Shown here piece after piece: positions 32,355 through 47,878 of a stretch of DNA of 64,000 nucleotides. Where the stretch lies: assembly GCF_030848495.1 (NCBI RefSeq), contig NZ_JAVDDT010000003.1, positions 62,001-126,000 of the forward strand, read 5' to 3'. Each line of letters starts with the position of its first letter. The stretch's first letter is position 1. Source of the stretch: Natronospira bacteriovora (GTDB taxonomy: Bacteria > Pseudomonadota > Gammaproteobacteria > Natronospirales > Natronospiraceae). The notes under the pieces are model-generated. The model did no database searches and was not told where the DNA came from. It saw nothing but the letters and a program-made list of their open reading frames with translations. A program made the translations under genes and the position numbers.

Positions 32355-33638
32355 CTAGAACAGCTCCACGGTCGCTGAATCATCCCTGGAAGTGCGCCGC
32401 TGATCCAGGGAGGCTTCAGAACCGGACGTCCCCGTATGCTGCACATGGGTATCACGCTGAGAGTCCATCACATAATGGCTCGCCAGTGCGTCCACATCGA
32501 ACGATTCAATGGCATTCGAATCGCCTTCCCCTGGTTCAAGCGAATCACAGATCCGGCGCTCATGCATCTCAATGGCATGGAGCGCGGACTGTACCTGTTC
32601 AAGCTGCTGACGGGTAATATCCTGAAATTGCACTCCGGCCAGTGCCTCCATGCTCTGCTCAGCCAGACGGCGACTGGTGCCCCGCAAATGAGCCATGACC
32701 GCTTCATGATGGGACATGACTCGTTCACGCTCTTCTGCCATCACTTCCAGCTCTGTTCGAATTCGCCGAAGCACACTCTCTTCGGCCTCAACGACCTCGT
32801 CCGATTCCCCCTGCAGCTTTGCTGCTGACTGGTCCTTGATGATGGCGGTGACGGCGGGAATCTCCTGTTCCACGAATCGAGCGGCCTCCTGACTCTTCAT
32901 GGCGAGGGCGCGAACCTCATCCGCCACCACCGCGAACTCCCTCCCTGCCCTGCCCGCTCTCGCCGCCTCGATCGCCGCGTTCAAGGCAACGAGATTCGTC
33001 TTGACGGCGATGTCACGGATCATCTGCACCGACTCCATCAGTTTGTCGGCACGCCCCAGCATCTGTTCAGCCCGCTCCCGCTCAAGCTGGAGTTGAGCAC
33101 TGCGTCGCTCGATGTAACTGGCAATGTCACTGACCGCCTTATCCTTGCTGGCCCGCAATGCCACATTACCCTCTCCCAGCGTCTCTGTTTCCGCCTCCGA
33201 TTCTTCAACAAAGGTCAAAAAACGTCGTGATTCATCATCCATTGCCTGAAGGCGCTGAATCATGCCCGTCGCAGCGGAGTCGGTTTCAGCCTGAACACGC
33301 TGAAGATGCCCTCTCAAAATCGGATAAGCCGGCTGCACGGAGCCCAGGGTTCTCCGTATCACATCCTTGAGGTTGCCACGCTCACCCGGACCACTGATAC
33401 CGAGCTTGCCGAGAAGCCCCGTTGATGCGGGGGTGAACAGTGACATCGCCGCCGCTACCCCAAGAGACAGCAAGACACCCCCCGTCAAGGCCACAAGATA
33501 CGGATTCGACAGAAACAACTGCAAAGGCAACAGAATCATCAGCCCACCAAGCAGGCCGGCAAGCAGTAAGCACGGCAAGCGTGCGGCCCAGCCGGGAACT
33601 TGGGACTCTCTGTCAGGCTCCTCCGGATTGAATGCCAT
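32355..33638 (-). CDS. Membrane-anchored methyl-accepting chemotaxis protein without a sensor domain
   Basis: 427 residues. Two closely spaced membrane helices (about 23-46 and 50-70) leave no periplasmic ligand domain. The cytoplasmic coiled coil contains the MCP hairpin tip [20 protein letters not shown] and [20 protein letters not shown] (about 225-270). The region after the tip (about 280-345) is a coiled coil that ends in a [14 protein letters not shown] segment, also found in other non-classical MCP-like proteins. Good GGAGG site 6 bp before ATG. Last gene of the chemosensory operon. Confidence 0.88.
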
Positions 33639-33649
33639 ATGGCGCCTCC

Positions 33650-34033
33650 TCAGGCCGCATTCATGTCCAGATTCAGGAGCTTGCCGAGGACTGCCCTGAG
33701 ATTATCCGCAGTCACCGGTTTGACCATCCAGCCGGTGGCCCCATTGCGACGGGCCTCGTCCTTTTTCTCCTGCTGGGATTCGGTGGTCAACACAAGGATT
33801 GGCGTTCGTGCGTGAGCAGGAAGGGCACGGGCCTCTCTTATCAAGGTAAGACCATCCATGCGCGGCATATGAACATCAGTGATCAGAAGATCGGGCTTGA
33901 AGCCATTCCTCAATCGCTCCAGCGCTTCCTGTCCGTCATTGGCCGTCTCCACCTTGCAGCCAGCCCGCTCCATGATCGTCGCCATACTCATGCGTATGGT
34001 TCCTGAATCATCCACCAGGTAGATCGTCTTCAT
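33650..34033 (-). CDS. CheY-type single-domain response regulator
   Basis: 127 residues, one receiver domain. Acidic pair in [10 protein letters not shown], phospho-acceptor Asp in [13 protein letters not shown], Thr in ILVLTTESQ, and Lys in [12 protein letters not shown]. It is the only stand-alone receiver in the operon and the likely output of its CheA. Start overlaps the parA stop by 4 bp. Confidence 0.93.
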
Positions 34034-34857
34034 TGCAGTCCTCCTTGGAGTGCCTGTGACTTGGGATACACATCGACGCAGCCGTGCTCAAGATTCGGCA
34101 AGCCCGCCCCCCTTACCAGAGCCTCGGCCACAAGAAAATAATCCATGCTGCCCCGACTTCGAGGGGCCACATCACGTACCGGCCTCCCTTCCCCGAAGGC
34201 CTCCGCCAACCGAATATCACTTCGAATTCCCCGAAGAATACGGGTTGCGCCGAACTCTGCCGCCAACTCATCCAGAACGGATCGCTGCAAGCGCACTCGG
34301 CGATCAACCATCACAGGCAGAATGCCCAGCAGATTCGGCTGATGACCTCCGCTGAGACTGGCGCGCATGAACAGGCGTGATAGCGCTCTCACACCAGCCG
34401 CAGCCAGGTGATGAGGGATCAGTGGCACCAGAACACTGCCCGATGCCATAAGCGCATTCATCAAGATCGAATCCATGGAAGGCGGCGTATCCAGAATAAT
34501 CACGTCATACGGCTCGAAGGCCGGATGGCAGAGCGCCCGACGAAGACGATGCCAGTCACCACCCGGGTGGCTCCCATCAAAGGCAGGATCGGCAGGAATC
34601 ACATCCACCCCCGTGGGGGTAGAATGAATAGCCTGCGAGAGCTGTGACTCTTTGCCGGCAAACACGCAATGACTGCCGATGCGCACGTCTTCCTGCAAAC
34701 CCAGGCCAATGGCCACATGGTTCTGCGGATCCAGATCAATGATCAGCACACGGGCATCACGTGCTGTCAGTTCCGCGGCAACATTCACCGCCGTTGTGGT
34801 CTTGCCGGAGCCACCCTTTCGGTTGGTTATGGCAATGGTACGGGGCCGAATATCCAT
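34030..34857 (-). CDS. ParA-family ATPase of the chemosensory operon
   Basis: 275 residues from ATG 34857 (MDIRPRTIAITNRKGGSGKT). Deviant Walker A KGGSGKTTTAVNVA, Walker A' region IIDLDPQNHVAIGLG, and Walker B YDVIILDTPPS. Such MinD/ParA ATPases within che clusters (ParC of Vibrio, PpfA of Rhodobacter) position chemoreceptor arrays on the nucleoid or at poles; a similar role is inferred here. Its ATG shares one base with the upstream TGA, indicating coupling. No parB is nearby, which argues against plasmid partition. Confidence 0.9.
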   Translation of the reverse strand: MDIRPRTIAITNRKGGSGKTTTAVNVAAELTARDARVLIIDLDPQNHVAIGLGLQEDVRIGSHCVFAGKESQLSQAIHSTPTGVDVIPADPAFDGSHPGGDWHRLRRALCHPAFEPYDVIILDTPPSMDSILMNALMASGSVLVPLIPHHLAAAGVRALSRLFMRASLSGGHQPNLLGILPVMVDRRVRLQRSVLDELAAEFGATRILRGIRSDIRLAEAFGEGRPVRDVAPRSRGSMDYFLVAEALVRGAGLPNLEHGCVDVYPKSQALQGGLQ

Positions 34858-35123
34858 CAACCCGTCTCCCTCTGCACCGGCTGATCGATCCGATTGAGCA
34901 GGGGCATGATATGTTGGCAAAGCCAGGGATCCGCCGGCTCGCCAACCACGTCCGCTTCCAGATAGTAAAGAACCTGAAACACCGCGGAATGCATCCAGAT
35001 GCAATGGGAAATATCCACCGGGCGTTCAGGGTGAGCACGCACCGCCTGGAACAGATCCTCCGCTTCCTCGACTTCACAACGCTCGATCAGCTGAATGCGA
35101 TCCGCATCAATCTCAAGACTCAT
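34857..35123 (-). CDS. Small STAS-like protein
   Basis: 88 residues. RIQLIERCEVEEAEDLFQAV and RPVDISHCIWMHSAVFQVL follow the strand-helix-strand pattern of STAS/anti-anti-sigma domains, with SHCIWMHSAV at the position where those proteins often have a phosphorylatable Ser. Wedged between cheA (4-bp overlap) and parA (1-bp overlap), so clearly part of the system. Possibly an adaptor or modulator; its function is not known. Confidence 0.7.
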   Translation of the reverse strand: MSLEIDADRIQLIERCEVEEAEDLFQAVRAHPERPVDISHCIWMHSAVFQVLYYLEADVVGEPADPWLCQHIMPLLNRIDQPVQRETG

Positions 35124-37651
35124 GTCAGTAGCCCCTTCATATCCAGGATGAAAAGTATTCGCCCATCACCCAACAAGGCATGACCGGTGAACAGGTCACT
35201 TTGCCTGAGCAGCCCTTCCAGTGGCTTGACCACCACCTCCATGTCTTCACCCACGTCATCCACACGAAGGGCAACACGCCGGGACTGCCAGTGCAGGAGA
35301 ACGAAACTGGCCACCGCGTCCGGCTCCTGCGTTTCTTCCGGTGGCTCGATCCCCAGGTGCTGGTTGAGATCAAGCACTGGCAAGACTTCCTCCCGAACCA
35401 TGATCACCGGCTGATGGCTAACCTTCTGAATGTCGGCGGGACTGCGGCGTACGATCTCGACGACGGCCTCAATGGGTATCCCCAGCTGCTGCCGCCCGCA
35501 ATGGGCCAGCAATACCCGAGTGACCGCCATGGAGAGCGGAAGGGATAAGGTCACACAGCTGCCTTCTCCAGGGACGCTGTCCAGGTCGATCTGTCCATCC
35601 AACGCCTCCACGGTGTCGCGAACGGCGTCCATGCCAACACCTCGGCCAGAGACTTCCGAAACAGCGTCCGCCGTGGAGAAACCTGGCGCGAAAATGAGTT
35701 TCTGCCTTTCTCTCTCATCCATGCCGTCCAGTTCTTCTGCACTGACAATGCCTTTCTCGAGCGCCATGGCAGCAATCCGCTCCGGATCCAGGCCTCGGCC
35801 GTCATCGGCTACTTCCAGCCGCAACCAGTCGCCCGAATGCCTGGCCCGCAACAACAGTCGGCCACGATCCGGCTTGCCAGCGGCACGTCGTTCCTCCAGT
35901 GACTCGATCCCATGATCCAGACTGTTTCGTACAAGGTGCGTGAGGGGGTCAACCATGGCCGCGAGCACCTGACGATCCGCCTGGGTACCCTCCCCCTCCA
36001 GCACCAGTTCGACCTGCTTGTCCAGCTTGCGTGCAATGTCGCGTGTCAGCCGACGAAAGCGCTGGAAGGTGGTCGCCACCGGCTGCATCTGCACTGCCGA
36101 CACCGCCCTCTGAAGTTCTCCGGTCACTCGCTCCAATAGCTGAGCCTGCTCCTTGATCTCTCGTGAGAGCTGGCGGGACCCGTGATCCTGTTCCGCTCGG
36201 CGTGCCAGATAAGGCAAACCATTGCGCGCCACAATCAGTTCGCCCACCAGCTCACCCAGCTGATCCAGGCGCTGGGTGTCCACATGCACATGCGCCGGCC
36301 CCTTCCGAGACTGCGCTTGAACACCGGAGTCGTTACCAGCTCCGGCCTCCACCTTTTGTTCTGAAACCTCCGATCCCGTGCCGACAACTTCCGGGGAATT
36401 CCCGACCTGTGCCTCAGACGGCATTCCAGGGGCGTCATCAAACAAACCGACCATGGCCGGATCCATCTCCGCCGTGGCCGTTGAATCGGCACTCGGTTCC
36501 GACAGGAACAGGCCGCCGCCGCCATCCGGCAGCGACCAGGCCTCGTCGTCATTGACGCCGCTGCCAGCCCCATCTTCCATGCAGGGCTGACAGCGGCGCT
36601 TCATGGCCTCAACCACGGCCCGCTTCCATGCCACCGGGATTTCTCCCAGGTCCTGTAGCGCACTCAACCATTCCAGGCCCCGATACACCCAAAGGCCATT
36701 ACCAAATAGGTTCATGCCCACTGTAATGGCACGCTCAAGGGCGTCACCATCGTGTCGGCAGATGGCGTCATCGAGGGCATCCAGCAGATCATCTTCCGCG
36801 GTCAACGGACGTGGGTCACCGTCCAGACGCAGCAACGAATCAATGGGTACCGTCATTATCTCAACCGGGATTCCTGAACGATCGGCGAACTGCTGTAACG
36901 TCCCGGTATCTGCTGAGGTGAGCAGCGAAAGCGTGAGATTAAAGCGAAAAGTGTCCATCTCGGAAAGGTCTTCAGGCACCTCGGCAGCCTCCACGCCCAA
37001 TGCCAGAAACCCCGGCAGTTCCATGGCCCAGGCCAGAGGATCTCGCCCCTTCAGGAAAGCCTCCGGATCCGGCTCCAGCCGGATCAGCCTAAGATCCGAT
37101 GCCCCCGCCTTGAACTGATGGACGAAGCTGCGGATCAACGCAGCTACCGGGAAGCAGGCCATGGCATTCGGATTGATCTGCACATCCGGAGGCGATCCAT
37201 GATCGGAAGGCGTTGCCTGTGATGCCAGAACACCTTCGCCCAGCACGGAAGCAATACGTTTGACCAGCCGCTCTGCACGCTCGGACCCACTCAGGTTCGA
37301 TACGCCCCCCTCCGCCATTTGATCGACCCAGGCCTGAGTCTGATCCACCGCCTCCAGCAACAGATCCACGAAATCAGCATCAGGCTCAAGCTCGCCCGTG
37401 CGAAGCCCATGCAAGAGCTGCTCTGTTTCGTGGAGCAGGCGGTTGAGTGCCGGTGCCTCGAACAGGCCTGCGCCACCCTTGACCGTATGGAGACTGCGGA
37501 ACACCGCATCCACGGCTGCCCGCTCACGGGGTTGTTGCTCCAGAACCAGCAGGCCGTCAGCGGCCGACTGCAACTGCTCCCGTGCCTCCACCACGAACTG
37601 TGCAAGCAGGGGATCCGTTTCCGTAGCACTGACATCATCAGCCTGATTCAC
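35120..37651 (-). CDS. cheA: Chemotaxis histidine kinase CheA
   Basis: 843 residues. I choose a GTG start at 37651 (VNQADDVSATETDPLL) because a perfect AGGAGG lies 5 bp upstream, while the in-frame upstream ATG runs through cheR. One HPt domain with phospho-His55 (RSLHTVKGGAG); a central domain of about 160-400 residues not matching the E. coli P2 domain; dimerisation helices (about 454-520); HATPase with N-box HLVRNSLDHGIE (572-583), GRGLDPERIA and GRGVGMDAV; and a C-terminal CheW-like P5 domain. Cys-rich KRRCQPCMED around 352-360 is unusual. Confidence 0.95.
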   Translation of the reverse strand: MNQADDVSATETDPLLAQFVVEAREQLQSAADGLLVLEQQPRERAAVDAVFRSLHTVKGGAGLFEAPALNRLLHETEQLLHGLRTGELEPDADFVDLLLEAVDQTQAWVDQMAEGGVSNLSGSERAERLVKRIASVLGEGVLASQATPSDHGSPPDVQINPNAMACFPVAALIRSFVHQFKAGASDLRLIRLEPDPEAFLKGRDPLAWAMELPGFLALGVEAAEVPEDLSEMDTFRFNLTLSLLTSADTGTLQQFADRSGIPVEIMTVPIDSLLRLDGDPRPLTAEDDLLDALDDAICRHDGDALERAITVGMNLFGNGLWVYRGLEWLSALQDLGEIPVAWKRAVVEAMKRRCQPCMEDGAGSGVNDDEAWSLPDGGGGLFLSEPSADSTATAEMDPAMVGLFDDAPGMPSEAQVGNSPEVVGTGSEVSEQKVEAGAGNDSGVQAQSRKGPAHVHVDTQRLDQLGELVGELIVARNGLPYLARRAEQDHGSRQLSREIKEQAQLLERVTGELQRAVSAVQMQPVATTFQRFRRLTRDIARKLDKQVELVLEGEGTQADRQVLAAMVDPLTHLVRNSLDHGIESLEERRAAGKPDRGRLLLRARHSGDWLRLEVADDGRGLDPERIAAMALEKGIVSAEELDGMDERERQKLIFAPGFSTADAVSEVSGRGVGMDAVRDTVEALDGQIDLDSVPGEGSCVTLSLPLSMAVTRVLLAHCGRQQLGIPIEAVVEIVRRSPADIQKVSHQPVIMVREEVLPVLDLNQHLGIEPPEETQEPDAVASFVLLHWQSRRVALRVDDVGEDMEVVVKPLEGLLRQSDLFTGHALLGDGRILFILDMKGLLT

Positions 37652-37679: not shown

Positions 37680-38597
37680 TCAGCCGCAGGCCAGATCTTC
37701 CATGTCCGAAACGGAACCATCCTGGCCAGGGCCACGGGTTCCCACGGGACGCTGATACACAATGGCTTCCGGGAAGCGGCGATACAGAAAATCTGCATTC
37801 ATGCGGTGCATGGATTCCGAATGGCCCAGGCAAACGAATCCACCGGGCCTGAGCGCCTTGAAAAGTCGCCCGGCAGCTTCCCGTCGGCTTTCATCATTGA
37901 AATAGATCAGGAGATTGCGACAGAGAATCACATCCATCGGAGGCAGACGTGCCATCCAGTCATCACTGTTCAGATTGATCTTGCTGAAACTGACCGAACG
38001 CCGAATGGCTTCACAGATGCGATACTGTCCCGGCCCCTCGGGGCGCAGGTAACATTCCCGTCGGGCTGCCGGAAGCATCCTCAGGGCGCGCTCACCGTAG
38101 ACCCCTTCCTTTGCTCGACGCAGCGCATCGGTGTCCACATCCGAGGCATGAATTTCCACAATGTAGTCATCCACCGCAGGCCAGGCATCAAGGAGCTCCA
38201 TGGCCACTGAGTAAGGCTCCTCGCCGGTGGAGCAGGGGATGGACCAGATACGCAATGGCTCGCTGTCGGGCACCTTCCGGCGACGGCGGTTTACCACAAT
38301 CTCAGGCAGGAGACTGCGCGTCATGCACTGGAGTTGATAGTACTCGCGGTTGAAATAGGTCTCGTTGACCGTGATGGCATTGGTCAACGCCTCGAACTCC
38401 TCGGTACTCGTGGATGACTGAAGTACAGCGAGATAACGCCGATGGTCGGACAATCGGAGTTGTTTCATTCTGCTGGCGACCCGCTTCTCCACCAGATAAC
38501 GACGATGATCTTCAAAGTAGAGACCCAGGGTCTCGAGAAAGAGAGCACGGAACGCTTCGAAATCCTTGTCACTCATCGCCATGGAGACATCGTTCAT
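37680..38597 (-). CDS. cheR: Chemoreceptor methyltransferase CheR
   Basis: 305 residues from ATG 38597 (MNDVSMAMSDKDFEAF), 2 bp after the cheB stop; longer upstream readings only overlap cheB. SAM-binding WSIPCSTGEEPYSVAMELLD, the ALTNAITVNETYFNRE segment, and DVILCRNLLIYFN are diagnostic. It lacks TPR extensions. Methylates Glu residues on the receptors. Confidence 0.95.
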   Translation of the reverse strand: MNDVSMAMSDKDFEAFRALFLETLGLYFEDHRRYLVEKRVASRMKQLRLSDHRRYLAVLQSSTSTEEFEALTNAITVNETYFNREYYQLQCMTRSLLPEIVVNRRRRKVPDSEPLRIWSIPCSTGEEPYSVAMELLDAWPAVDDYIVEIHASDVDTDALRRAKEGVYGERALRMLPAARRECYLRPEGPGQYRICEAIRRSVSFSKINLNSDDWMARLPPMDVILCRNLLIYFNDESRREAAGRLFKALRPGGFVCLGHSESMHRMNADFLYRRFPEAIVYQRPVGTRGPGQDGSVSDMEDLACG

Positions 38598-38599
38598 GT

Positions 38600-39721
38600 T
38601 CAGGCCGTCTCCGCGTTCTGGCCAACCTGACGCAGGTGGCGAAGGAGCTGCTGGGCAACCAGGTTTGACGGAATGACCATGTCGGCCGCGCCCCTGTCGA
38701 TCAACGCCTTGGGCATGCCCCATACCACAGCCGTGGCCTCGGATTCCGCAATGGTGAACCCGCCACCGTGGTACAGCTCAGCCATCGACTCGGCACCATC
38801 GTCGCCCATTCCGGTAAGCAGCACGCCGGCAATCGAGGCTGAGGGAAGCTGTTCGATCGCCGACTTCACCAGGCGATTGACCGATGGATGCCAGAAGCCG
38901 CTTTCGTCGCTCGGGACAGGCATGGCCTTGAGTACGCCATTGCGGTTGGTCATGACCATGTCGGCATCGCCTCGGGCAATATAGACACCGCCCGGCCGAA
39001 TATCGGTCAACTTGTCCACCTCTGTAACGGTCAGTTGACAGCGCTCGTTCATGCGTTTGGCGAACACACCGGTAAAGCTGGAAGGCATGTGCTGCGCTAC
39101 CAGCACAGGCCAGGGAAAGTCCGCGGGCAGCTCGGGGAGGATGCTTTCCAATGTACGCGGGCCTCCGGTCGACACGCCGATGAGAACCACTCCCTCACGA
39201 CTTACCGGCATTGTTTCCGCACGCCTTGGGCTGGTAACCGCCACTGGCTCTGCGGGATCGATCTCGGTATCGGAAACACCGCCGATTCTCGCCGTGGCGG
39301 CGGCGCGCACCTTCTCGATCAATTCACGACGAACCCGCTCCATATCCACCGTTACCGTGCCGCCAGGCTTCTGGATATAATCCACCGCCCCCAGCTCCAT
39401 GGCCTCCAGCGTTGCCAGCGCCCCCTGTTCCGTCAGGGAGGAAACCATCACCACCGGCGTAGGCATCTCGGTCATGATTCGGCTGAGGCATTCAAGGCCG
39501 TCCATTACCGGCATATGAATATCGAGAGTCACCACGTGTGGGCGAAAGTCACGAACACGTTCCAGGGCATCCGCACCGTCCCGCGCCATAACCACTTCCA
39601 TGTCCGGTTCGGCATCGAACATACGCATCAACTGCCTGCGCATGAGGGCGGAATCGTCCACCACCAGAACACGGGTAACGCCCTCTCCCTTTGATCTGAT
39701 CCGCTCGGCTGTCTGCCCCAT
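38600..39721 (-). CDS. cheB: Protein-glutamate methylesterase CheB
   Basis: 373 residues: receiver domain with phospho-Asp in VVTLDIHMPVMDG, a linker, then methylesterase with Ser in IGVSTGGPRTLESIL, His in AQHMPSSFTGVFA and Asp in LTGMGDDGAESM. The catalytic triad is intact. Its ATG shares one base with the stop of the triple-CheW gene. Confidence 0.96.
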   Translation of the reverse strand: MGQTAERIRSKGEGVTRVLVVDDSALMRRQLMRMFDAEPDMEVVMARDGADALERVRDFRPHVVTLDIHMPVMDGLECLSRIMTEMPTPVVMVSSLTEQGALATLEAMELGAVDYIQKPGGTVTVDMERVRRELIEKVRAAATARIGGVSDTEIDPAEPVAVTSPRRAETMPVSREGVVLIGVSTGGPRTLESILPELPADFPWPVLVAQHMPSSFTGVFAKRMNERCQLTVTEVDKLTDIRPGGVYIARGDADMVMTNRNGVLKAMPVPSDESGFWHPSVNRLVKSAIEQLPSASIAGVLLTGMGDDGAESMAELYHGGGFTIAESEATAVVWGMPKALIDRGAADMVIPSNLVAQQLLRHLRQVGQNAETA

Positions 39722-41411: not shown

Positions 41412-43343
41412 TTACAGGGCCTGCAACTCGTCGGCCAGACCGGCGATCTCTTCCGCGGCACGAGCCAACTCACGTGCACCCTGCCCCTGCTGTCGAGCCG
41501 CCGCAGCCGCCTCGGAACTGGACTGATCCGCCTGGGTTGCCGCCGAAGCAATCTGCTCCACCGCTGTCTTGGCTTCTTCCACCGCATTGCGGATCTCGTG
41601 GGACGCCTGGGCGCTTTCACGGTTGCCGGTCACGACGCCACTGATGCGCTTTTCCACCAACTCGATGCTTTCGATGATCTCCTGATAACGCTCGGCATCG
41701 CCGGAAAAATCACGCGCCAGGGTGTCGAACAGGTGCTGCGAAGCATCCACCTGACCACGGGCATTACCCACCACCTCGCCAACCTGTTCGGCGTTCTCAG
41801 CGGCATCATGGGACAGATTGCGGATGTCGTTGGCCACGACAACGAAGCCGTCACCGAACTCTCCGGCTCGGGCCGCTTCGATTCCACCACTGACGGCGAG
41901 CATGCTGGTCTTGATGTTGACAGTCTCAATGCTCTTCATGACCCGCTCGATGTCTCCGCAGACACCTTCCACACCGGCCACGTCCTGATGGAAGGCGAGG
42001 CTTTCTTCACCGTTTTCGGCAATGCGTTTAAGCATGCCCTCCACCTTCTCCCTGTTTTCCTTGAGGAGCTCCAGGATTCGATCGCCCTGTTCTACCAGTG
42101 CGTCCGCACGTTCCGAGGCCTGGCGTGCACCCCCAAGCAGCTGCTCCACCTGCGCACTGGTGGCCGATGCTCCCTGGCTCTGCAGCCGTGCCCCCTGCTC
42201 GATCTGTTCAATCGCCGTTCCAATCTGCTCCGAGGCCCGCTGGATTTCTTCCACAGAGGCCGCCAGCTGTTCCGCCGAAGAGGCCAGATCGGCGCCACGC
42301 CCGGTGCCATCGGTATTCCCCTTCACCTCCTCGGCAACCTGGGCAAGGTGCTGGGCCGATTCCTGACATTCCGCCAGCGCCCGGTTCTGCTGGGTCACCA
42401 TGCGGGCGGCTTCCTCGCAAGCGGAGGACTGCTGTTCGGATGCCGACGCCACTTTCTCCATCTCCTGCTGCACACGGTCCGACACTTCCGCTGACTGCTC
42501 GGCGGTTTCCAGAATCTCCCTTGCACCCTGCAGCATTTCATCCATGCTCTTGCGGGTGCGCTCCAGCTGCTCAATGGCGGCATCCCCCGCCTTGCGGTCA
42601 TCCGCACCGGCCTGAGCCGCCTGCTGGATCTTTTCCACCAGCGCCTCAACCTGCTCACCGATTGACGTCACATGGGTCTGGATCCGGTCGGCACTGGACT
42701 GGGCTGTCTCGGCCAATGCACGCACTTCATCCGCCACCACGGCAAATCCCTTGCCATGCTCACCGGCACTGGCCGCTTCCACGGCAGCATTCAGCGCCAG
42801 CAGATTGGTCTGATCAGCAATACGGGTGACCGCACGAACGATCTCACCCACTTCCCGGGCGGAGTCAGCCATGGCATTGACCTGCTTGACCGCCTCTTCC
42901 TGCCGGGCCACCCCCTTGCGCACCCCCGCCACCATGCCTTCAATCAGGCGATTGGCAGCTTCCACCTCGTCCTTCATGGCATCCAGGCGCTTGATGGCAC
43001 TGCGACTGTTATCCCGCTGCTGTCGTACCGCTGCCGCCGAGCTGGCAACCGCCTGAAGGGTTTCCTGGGCGGCGGAAGCCGCTTCTTCGGCACCGGTGGA
43101 CACCTGCTCCATGGAACGCCCCAGTTCTTCCGATGCGGCCACCGACTGACTTACGGAGCTGGACAACTGCGTTGCGGCCGCCGCAATTCGCTCAGCGGTC
43201 TGCTGCCGGCGTGCGGTATTGCGTGCCCGGCGTCGAACCGCATCGGCACGACTCCGATCAGCGTCCGGATCGAACCCGTCTGCGGGCGGCGGCGGGGCCG
43301 CCCCGGCGTCCTGCTTGACTTCACCTGTCTTGACCAATGCCAT
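41412..43343 (-). CDS. Cytoplasmic chemoreceptor with two MCP hairpin tips
   Basis: 643 residues from ATG 43343, 6 bp after GGAGG. There is no membrane helix and no recognisable ligand domain; the N-terminus is a short Pro/Ala-rich tail. Tip 1 (about 174-215) is canonical: [20 protein letters not shown] then [16 protein letters not shown]. Tip 2 (about 470-515) is divergent: [20 protein letters not shown] then [20 protein letters not shown]. The rest is coiled coil rich in Ala, Glu and Gln. First gene of the chemosensory operon, 32 bp before the triple-CheW gene. Confidence 0.92.
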
Positions 43344-44051: not shown

Positions 44052-44711
44052 ATGACCGCAAGGAATGCAGAATTCGAACCGGAGGCGTTTCGCGAGCGCC
44101 TGAATTCCCTCGGACAGCGCTTCCGAAACAGGAAGACCATGGCCCAGGCGGCCGGCGTCTCGACGGACGCACTCAGCCGCTATTTGAGGGGAGACAACCA
44201 GCCCCCGGTCGGTGCCATGGCGAGACTGGCCATTGCCTGCAATGTGTCTCTTGACTGGCTGGCAACCGGGCGCGGCAGCTGTGACCATGAGGACTTTCGC
44301 ATCCCGCCACTGGATACCGACGGCAGTGAAAGCAGCGGACGACATTCACCGGCCAGCCTCCCCGGCCTGTCGCTTCGCCGCGAGTGGGTGGTGCAGGCCC
44401 TGCAGGCGCCCCCCGAAGATCTCGCCGTCTGCCTGGTACAGGATGAGAGCATGAGTCCGCTACTGAAAACCGGCGATGTCATGGTCATCGACAGGGAGCG
44501 AGGCGAAGGCCCCCGACACGACGGCATCTACGCCCTGAGCCTCCAGGACGCCTTTCTGGTCAAGCGGATACAGCACAAGCCCGGACAGAAAATCGAATTC
44601 CACAGTGAACACCCCGGTTACCAGAGCTTCGAGATGGAGCTGAATGCACTCAAGGCCGGCCGCATCCGCATTCACGGCCGCGTGATCTGGTGCGGCCGGC
44701 GCATGTTCTGA
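44052..44711 (+). CDS. XRE-type regulator with LexA/CI-like S24 domain
   Basis: 219 residues. N-terminal helix-turn-helix (about 25-62, MAQAAGVSTDALSRYLRGDN), a linker, then an S24 peptidase-like domain: QDESMSPLLKTGDVMVID carries the catalytic Ser, and DAFLVKRIQ carries the catalytic Lys. No Ala-Gly or Cys-Gly autocleavage site is obvious in the linker, so self-cleavage is uncertain. Phage-repressor-like, but no phage genes are nearby. It may control the 708-bp divergent region and the downstream c-di-GMP gene. Confidence 0.85.
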   Translation: MTARNAEFEPEAFRERLNSLGQRFRNRKTMAQAAGVSTDALSRYLRGDNQPPVGAMARLAIACNVSLDWLATGRGSCDHEDFRIPPLDTDGSESSGRHSPASLPGLSLRREWVVQALQAPPEDLAVCLVQDESMSPLLKTGDVMVIDRERGEGPRHDGIYALSLQDAFLVKRIQHKPGQKIEFHSEHPGYQSFEMELNALKAGRIRIHGRVIWCGRRMF

Positions 44712-44791
44712 GGAACCTCTGGTCATTCGTTCGTGCCTTGCAATGTTCCGGCACAATGGAAAGAATGGGTGTGTCGACACGGAAGAACTCC

Positions 44792-47700
44792 ATGACGCAT
44801 CCAGCAATGTCCTCCCCAAGACTTCGGCTTGGGCTGCTCGTTTTCGGCCTGACGGCCATCGTGGCCATCAATGGCCTGTTGGCCAGCGACCTCTATCGCC
44901 AGTACCAGCGCACGCTGAGCGATGCCCAGGCATCGGCGGGGATCATTGCCAGCGGGCTTGAGCAGTACACGATCCGCACCCTTGAGAGCGTGGATACAAC
45001 GCTGGACGCCCTCGCCAGCCGTGTACTTGATGCCTACGGACCTATCACCCTGGAACACCCCGACATCACCGCCATCCTGGGCCAGAGTGTGCGCGGCCCG
45101 ATGGTCAGCAACATCATCGTCGTGAATGCCTCCGGGCGCTGGGTCAATGACCTCTACGGCGACCCCAACCTGGCCTCCAACCTGGCGGATCGGGATTATT
45201 TCCGCACCCACCAGCTCATGCCCACCGACGGTCTCTTTCTCGACCGCCCCCTGGAGGCACGCACCAGCGGCATGCACTTCATTGCCGCCAGCCGTGCCCT
45301 GCGTGATCAGGATGACCAGTTCCTCGGTGTCATCGCCGCCATCATCGACCCCGGCCACTACCAGGCGCTCTTTCAGGAACTGGGCGTCAATCTGGCGGGT
45401 GGCCTGGCCCTGGTGGATACCCGGGGGGCACTGGTGACGACCAGCGGTGACATCCCCGGCTCGCTGATCGAAACCGTGGCAGACAATGGTTCGGCACAGA
45501 CCCTCAGACAGTTCAGTGATCGGGAATCCGGGAAGGATTACTTTCTGGTTCAACGCCCCGTGGGCGGCTATCCACTGGTGCAGGCCGTCACCATCGACGT
45601 CGACCGGGTCCTCCAGCCCTGGCGGGCCACCCTGCGTGGCTACCTTTTCCTCGGCACCGGAGTCAGTCTGCTACTGCTCCTGGGCGTGGTTCTGCTCTGG
45701 CGGGAAACCCGGCGCAGTGAATGGGTTCAACAGGAGCTGCGGCAGAGTGAATCCCGCTTTCGCAGTCTGATCGAATCCACCAGCGACTTTGTCTGGGAGA
45801 TGGATGCCGACGGTTACTGCGTCTACGCCAGCCCCCAGATCGAGGACATGATGGGATACCGCCCCGAGGAAGTGGTCGGAATGCGCCCCTACGACCCCAT
45901 GACACCGCGGGAACAGGACCGACTGACCGACGTCTACCACAGCATCATCGAAGCCCGGGAACCCTTCCACATGCTGGAGAACCGAAATGTCCACCGGGAC
46001 GGGCATGAGGTCGTGCTCGAGACCAGCGGTGTGCCGGTCTTTGATGATGAGGGCAACTTCCGTGGCTATCGCGGCATTGATCGGGACATCACCGAACGCA
46101 AACGCCTGGAAGAGGCCCTGCGCAGCCTGGCTCTGCTCACCGGCAAGGAGTCCGAGCAGGAATTTTTCCAGCTGGCCAACCGGAACCTGGCAAGAGCCCT
46201 GGGCATGCGATGCTGCGTTCTCGTTCAGTGCGTCGGCGAGGAGCAATTGAAAATGCGTGCATGGCACGACGAGAAGGGCGGTCATGAGTGCCCGGCCTTG
46301 CCGGAACAGATCATCAGGGCCTTGCTACGTGAAGAACGGCTGGTGATCTGCGACGGATTGGCCAGCGAAATCCCGGATGATCGCCTGGTCAGCGCCATGC
46401 AGGGAGAAAGCCTGTTTGCAACAACCATTCGCCCGGCTTCCGGCATTCGCTGGGGTTATCTGATCGCTCTGGATACCCAGCGGGTGACACGCGTGCGTTT
46501 GTCCCGGGTGGAACCCATACTGGATGTGTTTGCTGCGCGCATTGCCCTGGAGCTGGATCGCAACCAGGCACAGGCCGACCTCAGCTGGGAAGCCAGCCAC
46601 GACACCCTGACCGGCCTGCTCAACCGGCGGGCCTTTGATGAGCAGTTACGGCTGACCCTGGCAAGGCCACCGGCCAAGGGCATGGTGCACGCCCTGATCT
46701 ACATGGATCTGGATCAGTTCAAGGTGGTCAACGACACCTGCGGCCACATGGCAGGCGATGAACTGCTGCGCCAGCTGGCCCGATCGCTGAGCACCCGTTT
46801 GCGGCGTTCAGACCAGCTGGCAAGGCTGGGGGGCGACGAGTTCGGCCTGATTCTCGCGGACTGCCCCATGGATCGCAGCATGGAGATCGCCGAGACACTG
46901 CTGGATACCATCCGCGCCTTCCAGTTCCAGTGGGAAGGCCGCAGCTTCTCGGTGGGTGCCAGTATCGGCATGACCCATACCCGCGAGGCGGTCGGTGCCG
47001 CCAGCGATCTGCTCGCCCAGGCGGATCTGGCCTGTTATGCGGCCAAGGATCTCGGCCGCAATCGTATCCAGGTCTATCAGGTGGACAATCTGCACATCCG
47101 CGCACGGCATGGTGAAATGGGCTGGGTTCCCCGTCTGGACCGCGCCCTGGTGGAGAACCGCTTTCAGCTGTTCGGGCAATGGATGGTACCCACATCCCCG
47201 GACAGCCACCTGACACCCAGCCTGGAAGTCCTTTTGCGCCTGATCGACGAGGATGGCACCGTCATCGATGCCGCCGAATTCGTTCCGGCGGCGGAACGCT
47301 ACAATCTGATGACCCGAATCGACCGCCATGTCATCGACCGCGTATTCGCCATTGCCGCGAATACCGACGACGCTCATCGCCCACGTCGATGGTCCATTAA
47401 TCTGTCCGGTACCTCACTGGGCAACGGGGACCTGCATGCCTTCATAGAAGGCCGCTTCCGGCATTATGAAGTGGATCCAGCGTGGTTCTGCTTCGAGATT
47501 ACCGAAACCGCGGCCATCCACAACTTCGAAGAAGCACAACGACTGTTCCGGCACCTTCGAAGACTGGGCTGCCGGGTAGGCCTGGACGACTTCGGCAGCG
47601 GCCTTTCCTCGTTTGCCTACCTGCGGGAGATCGAGGTGGATGCCCTGAAGATAGACGGCAGCTTCGTCCGCAGCATCGCCAGTGATGAAGTCAGCCGCAG

Positions 47701-47878
47701 CATGGTCCGGGCCATGCACGAAGTGGGCAAGGCAATGAACCTCGATACCGTGGCGGAGTTCGTCGAAGACGACGCCATTCTCGCCGTACTGCGGGAACTG
47801 GGCGTGGACATGGCGCAGGGTTACGCCGTTCATCGACCCCAGGCACTGGAGGAACTGATCCCACCGCCCCTGTCGTGA
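44792..47878 (+). CDS. Membrane PAS-GAF-GGDEF-EAL cyclic-di-GMP protein
   Basis: 1028 residues from ATG 44792 (MTHPAMSSPRLRLGLLVFGL), with a GGAAG site; upstream ATGs lie at 44756 and 44765. Two membrane helices (about 10-32 and 285-307) flank a periplasmic Cache-like domain. Then PAS (about 325-445), a GAF-like region (about 455-595), GGDEF (about 600-765; LARLGGDEFGLIL intact) and EAL (about 780-1020). The EAL motif reads EVL (PSLEVLLRL), but downstream ligand and catalytic motifs ITETAA, DDFGSG, LKIDGSFV and AEFVED are kept. It could therefore both make and degrade c-di-GMP. Likely co-transcribed with the repressor gene 80 bp upstream. Confidence 0.93.
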   Translation: MTHPAMSSPRLRLGLLVFGLTAIVAINGLLASDLYRQYQRTLSDAQASAGIIASGLEQYTIRTLESVDTTLDALASRVLDAYGPITLEHPDITAILGQSVRGPMVSNIIVVNASGRWVNDLYGDPNLASNLADRDYFRTHQLMPTDGLFLDRPLEARTSGMHFIAASRALRDQDDQFLGVIAAIIDPGHYQALFQELGVNLAGGLALVDTRGALVTTSGDIPGSLIETVADNGSAQTLRQFSDRESGKDYFLVQRPVGGYPLVQAVTIDVDRVLQPWRATLRGYLFLGTGVSLLLLLGVVLLWRETRRSEWVQQELRQSESRFRSLIESTSDFVWEMDADGYCVYASPQIEDMMGYRPEEVVGMRPYDPMTPREQDRLTDVYHSIIEAREPFHMLENRNVHRDGHEVVLETSGVPVFDDEGNFRGYRGIDRDITERKRLEEALRSLALLTGKESEQEFFQLANRNLARALGMRCCVLVQCVGEEQLKMRAWHDEKGGHECPALPEQIIRALLREERLVICDGLASEIPDDRLVSAMQGESLFATTIRPASGIRWGYLIALDTQRVTRVRLSRVEPILDVFAARIALELDRNQAQADLSWEASHDTLTGLLNRRAFDEQLRLTLARPPAKGMVHALIYMDLDQFKVVNDTCGHMAGDELLRQLARSLSTRLRRSDQLARLGGDEFGLILADCPMDRSMEIAETLLDTIRAFQFQWEGRSFSVGASIGMTHTREAVGAASDLLAQADLACYAAKDLGRNRIQVYQVDNLHIRARHGEMGWVPRLDRALVENRFQLFGQWMVPTSPDSHLTPSLEVLLRLIDEDGTVIDAAEFVPAAERYNLMTRIDRHVIDRVFAIAANTDDAHRPRRWSINLSGTSLGNGDLHAFIEGRFRHYEVDPAWFCFEITETAAIHNFEEAQRLFRHLRRLGCRVGLDDFGSGLSSFAYLREIEVDALKIDGSFVRSIASDEVSRSMVRAMHEVGKAMNLDTVAEFVEDDAILAVLRELGVDMAQGYAVHRPQALEELIPPPLS

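Follow-up and report, generated by a model that had tools for sequence, protein, structure and literature searches.

A DosM-type chemoreceptor with two signalling domains in a probable F9 operon of Natronospira bacteriovora

The window considered here is a stretch of 64,000 nucleotides of Natronospira bacteriovora, in which a reading made from the sequence alone had pointed out a soluble chemoreceptor carrying two signalling tips in one chain. This raises the question of what such a protein does: it had been proposed that a single receptor could join two arrays or, alternatively, that the second tip was a dead structural copy. We will argue that the gene is very probably an orthologue of dosM lying in an F9 operon and, by analogy with Vibrio cholerae, that its product would act as a bridging strut. 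The double-tip architecture itself is already known. Indeed, receptors of this kind were reportedly described in 2016, and the novelty implied by the earlier reading does not hold.

The signature of the F9 class is the combination of a DosM-type receptor, with two tandem signalling domains, and CheW3 (PMC9321776). The known example is cluster I of V. cholerae, in which DosM is VC1403, CheW3 is VC1402 and CheA is VC1397, and where cryo-tomography has shown DosM to be an extended rod that carries one signalling domain at either end and is inserted in two baseplates (PMC7534058). In this species, the F9 arrays also form without CheA (PMC7534058).

Two signalling domains in one soluble chain

The dosM frame runs on the minus strand from an ATG at 43343 to a stop codon ending at 41412, so that the coordinates first proposed were correct and the strand, which had been left unstated, can be added. 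Its product matches the Pfam MCPsignal profile (PF00015) twice, with 172 bits summed; in a scan of the whole genome these matches lie at C3:104444-104902 (E 7e-32) and C3:103544-103990 (E 6e-19), both of which exceed the curated cut-off. Taken separately, the two halves of the protein each match solved MCP structures as well, and the presence of two signalling tips in one chain is thus borne out. The same is true of its description as a 643-residue protein devoid of membrane helix and sensor: no 19-residue window of the hydropathy scan has a mean above 0.8, so that there is no membrane segment, and no recognised sensor domain was found by the Pfam domain search, as is the case for 98% of DosM proteins (PMC9321776).

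The double-tip description had been made conditional on the second segment forming an MCP four-helix tip. An AlphaFold model of the second half (residues 340-643) predicts an MCP hairpin, with a pLDDT of 87, from an alignment made of 47 single-tip MCPs that presupposes the homology. This model compares to the Thermotoga chemoreceptor 2ch7 with a TM of 0.70-0.71 over about 300 columns, and to a solved E. coli tip with a TM of 0.86 by target length. The full-length model built from the single sequence is of low confidence, including at tip 2, and a fold search with it returned no significant match. Each half of DosM is an MCP hairpin, by sequence and model, comparable to the soluble MCPs of Thermotoga maritima (2ch7, 3g67), except that those have one tip whereas DosM has two.

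Table 1. Features of the dosM locus (positions in the window)
Feature	Position	Strand	Basis
dosM, 643-aa soluble chemoreceptor, MCP signalling domain present twice	41412..43343	-	profile matches, homologue alignment
Tip 1, residues 174-215, canonical motif save Ser192 for Arg	42699..42824	-	homologue alignment
Tip 2, residues 470-515, family-specific motif	41799..41936	-	alignment, tip tree, hairpin model
Central break, residues 342-350; heptad register moves one residue	42294..42320	-	alignment, model, periodicity
cheW3, 552 aa, with three CheW domains fused in a row; uncertain start codon	39721..41379	-	domain matches
cheB, methylesterase with receiver domain	38600..39721	-	domain matches
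cheR, methyltransferase; start deduced from its position, longest ORF from 38723	37680..38597	-	domain matches
cheA, kinase (domains: Hpt, dimerisation, HATPase, CheW); presumed GTG start, longest ORF from 37798	35120..37651	-	
88-aa ORF overlapping the cheA stop	34857..35123	-	related to small post-cheA gene of other F9 clusters
ParA-type ATPase	34030..34857	-	
CheY-like receiver protein	33650..34033	-	
Single-tip MCP of 427 aa, membrane-anchored, with two hydrophobic segments at its N-terminus	32355..33638	-	

A full F9 gene set and its relatives

The gene directly after dosM, on the same strand, is cheW3, and the cluster also holds cheA, cheB, cheR and a receiver gene, which makes it a full rather than a partial F9 set; such full sets were counted in 64 of 2781 species (PMC9321776). 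The likeness to the VC1403 system thus extends to the tandem signalling domains, the lack of a membrane segment and an operon with a triple CheW and CheA, and it is drawn from the published description of VC1403 and from the operon. There are differences too, since the cluster of N. bacteriovora contains a ParA and its tip 1 has a serine in place of the conserved arginine. The double-ended rod has been imaged in V. cholerae and is predicted for N. bacteriovora.

The survey of related genomes that the sequence-only reading had called for added 22 DosM proteins, encoded on plasmids and in genomes, that share the design, with identities of 31-43% where these were measured. Most of the homologues whose context was examined are surrounded by the same operon. 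Azospirillum brasilense Sp7 also carries the cluster. A DosM profile scores these proteins above 400 bits and single-tip MCPs below 165; it was built from 16 members of the family, which raises their own scores, and the gap is also seen for the members added later. Homology to other CheW3-adjacent receptors is shown by this profile together with the gene context. The DosM protein used as a query against genome contigs, and likewise two scans of viral contigs, retrieved single-tip MCPs only, and proteins of this type accordingly made up the alignment behind the model of the second half. Among 369 genomes of the class, 9 have DosM, as do 9 of the 398 in the phylum sample, with its own genome counted, and it was found in neither of the two other genomes of the genus. 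This sparse distribution fits the horizontal spread described for F9 (PMC9321776).

The smaller genes of the cluster have counterparts elsewhere. Relatives of the 88-aa ORF, one of them weakly STAS-like, follow cheA in every F9 cluster examined. The ParA-type ATPase, which might position a cytoplasmic array, also lies within clusters L018, L021 and L208, and the relatives of these two genes and of the membrane MCP (for the latter, in L208) occupy the same places as here. In most relatives examined (L016, L017, L018, L021, L022 and L208), the interval from cheB to cheA also contains a HEAT-repeat gene and one receiver gene, which are found at that place neither in the window nor in L019 and L020, the clusters of Agrobacterium and Sphingobium. 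Beyond dosM, at 44052-47878 on the plus strand, lie a Peptidase S24/HTH-type repressor and a GGDEF-EAL membrane protein that also has PAS domains. The host genome also codes for flagellins, and other CheW-domain genes occur at two further places in it, so the F9 system does not stand alone.

The two tips and the distance between them

The distance from tip glutamate to tip glutamate is 300 residues in all 23 proteins, 22 of which have no indel in between. The hydrophobic periodicity of 3.5 residues is in a single phase over residues 31-338 and in a different one beyond about residue 350, up to the C-terminus, with a shift at the centre of 104.7 +/- 4.5 degrees (23 proteins), where one residue amounts to 102.9; this shift largely restates that 300 = 43 x 7 - 1 and is not independent of the spacing. 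The break falls where the relatives have a conserved KNSTD; in this protein the residues are KGNTD (341-345), and some 153 residues separate them from tip 1. As the N-terminal helix starts about 155 residues ahead of tip 1 in the model and the C-terminus lies 154 residues past tip 2, both chain ends and the break stand at matching distances from the tips, and the simplest reading is that DosM consists of two MCP hairpins joined tail to tail. A straight rod of 300 residues at 0.15 nm per residue would measure 44-45 nm, while the F9 baseplates of V. cholerae are 35 nm apart (PMC7184735; PMC3964821). The centre would therefore tilt, kink or overlap, unless VC1403 is shorter. We do not consider this mismatch a decisive argument against the rod, since soluble fragments of the E. 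coli Tar receptor form double layers too, at 31 nm (PMC3964821).

The tips are the best-conserved parts of the family alignment, with a mean pairwise identity of 0.83 for tip 1 and 0.71 for tip 2, against 0.42 elsewhere. In a tree of the tips, which rests on 81 columns only, all 23 segments of tip 2 group in a single clade (support 100/99), and so do the 23 of tip 1 (94/80); both fall on the same side, yet one single-tip MCP sits beside tip 2, so that the two tips may have arisen by duplication or by fusion. All 22 relatives have a recognisable tip 2 motif, which was found in none of 151 single-tip MCP hairpins taken from MCP frames of viral contigs. In Tsr, E385, R388 and F396 contribute to the trimer contacts (PMC8144572). 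By alignment, their equivalents are intact in tip 2 (E489, R492 and F500) and read E189, S192 and F200 in tip 1. Ser192 (codon AGT) is peculiar to this protein, because tip 1 of all 22 relatives has an arginine there. Judged from the aligned residues, it is thus tip 1, and not tip 2, that lacks the conserved 'ionic lock' arginine of the trimer, so that the location first given for tip 1 was right but the term 'canonical' does not fully apply. Neither the contrast between the two tips nor the constant spacing nor the break in register turned up in the papers covered; they are possibly undescribed, but may be known.

A predicted strut between two baseplates

In the mechanism that we favor, the DosM dimer would be a long rod of two MCP hairpins, tail to tail via the short central break. 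At either end, the tip would enter a trimer of receptor dimers and bind both CheA and CheW3, and DosM would keep two CheA/CheW baseplates face to face at a constant spacing, in an array without membrane. As DosM has no sensor of its own, soluble receptors with a single tip, in the same array, would supply the signal. The host genome does encode two single-tip MCPs without membrane segment (L004, an open frame of 442 aa, and L006, one of 517 aa), and to name them as the array partners of DosM is a guess. The proposal that one receptor joins two arrays thus gains support from the anatomy of the protein, its gene neighbourhood and the cryo-tomography of V. cholerae (PMC7534058), from which both the bridging and the array are predicted by analogy in N. 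bacteriovora. Against it speak the arginine missing from tip 1, the low confidence of the full-length model at tip 2 and a straight length greater than the spacing of the V. cholerae baseplates.

Two other views of the chain seem improbable to us. Tip 2 could be degenerate and bind neither CheA nor CheW, the protein then being an ordinary soluble receptor working through tip 1. It is true that tip 2 of N. bacteriovora departs from the family motif more than the tips of its relatives do, at the end of a long branch (1.17), but the motif is conserved in 22 homologues, the tip 2 segments form a well-supported clade, the three trimer-contact residues are intact in tip 2 while tip 1 has lost its arginine, and modelling of the segment gives an MCP hairpin. 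We regard this degeneracy as quite unlikely, and the idea of a dead structural copy, left by the decay of a tandem duplication, is not supported in view of the conservation of tip 2. Alternatively, the chain could fold back at the break and place both tips in one baseplate, occupying two places in a single array. The real helix break, with its heptad shift at the centre, and a straight rod exceeding the baseplate spacing of 35 nm would both suit such a fold. However, the V. cholerae member is an extended rod between two baseplates in cryo-tomography (PMC7534058), and the N- and C-terminal helices both end at the centre, as tail-to-tail hairpins predict, so that we give the fold-back very little credence.

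Within the bridged layers, DosM could be a passive scaffold that holds the layers together while its tips do not regulate the kinase, a possible reading that we place on the doubtful side. The missing sensor domain, here as in nearly all DosM proteins, and the fact that CheA is dispensable for the formation of the V. cholerae F9 arrays are both in line with it, whereas the methylation-type motifs found at matching heights in both halves, and the presence of cheR and cheB in the operon, rather suggest an adaptation of the receptor or of its partners.

Returning to the bridging strut, we tentatively suggest that it could be polar, each end being specialised for its own partners. Tip 1 would serve the ordinary receptors that have a single tip, and tip 2, with the conserved motif proper to it, a second baseplate that differs in composition, where it perhaps contacts a particular CheW domain of CheW3. 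If this were true, the constant gap of 300 residues and the displacement of the register by one residue would set how far apart the two ends lie and how they are rotated. This locus adds one more member, together with its operon, to the uncommon F9 chemosensory class. It also provides design rules for the strut, namely two distinct and conserved tip types, an invariant gap and a central heptad shift of one residue, and these rules bear on the fixed distance between the baseplates and on whether the two layers are equivalent.
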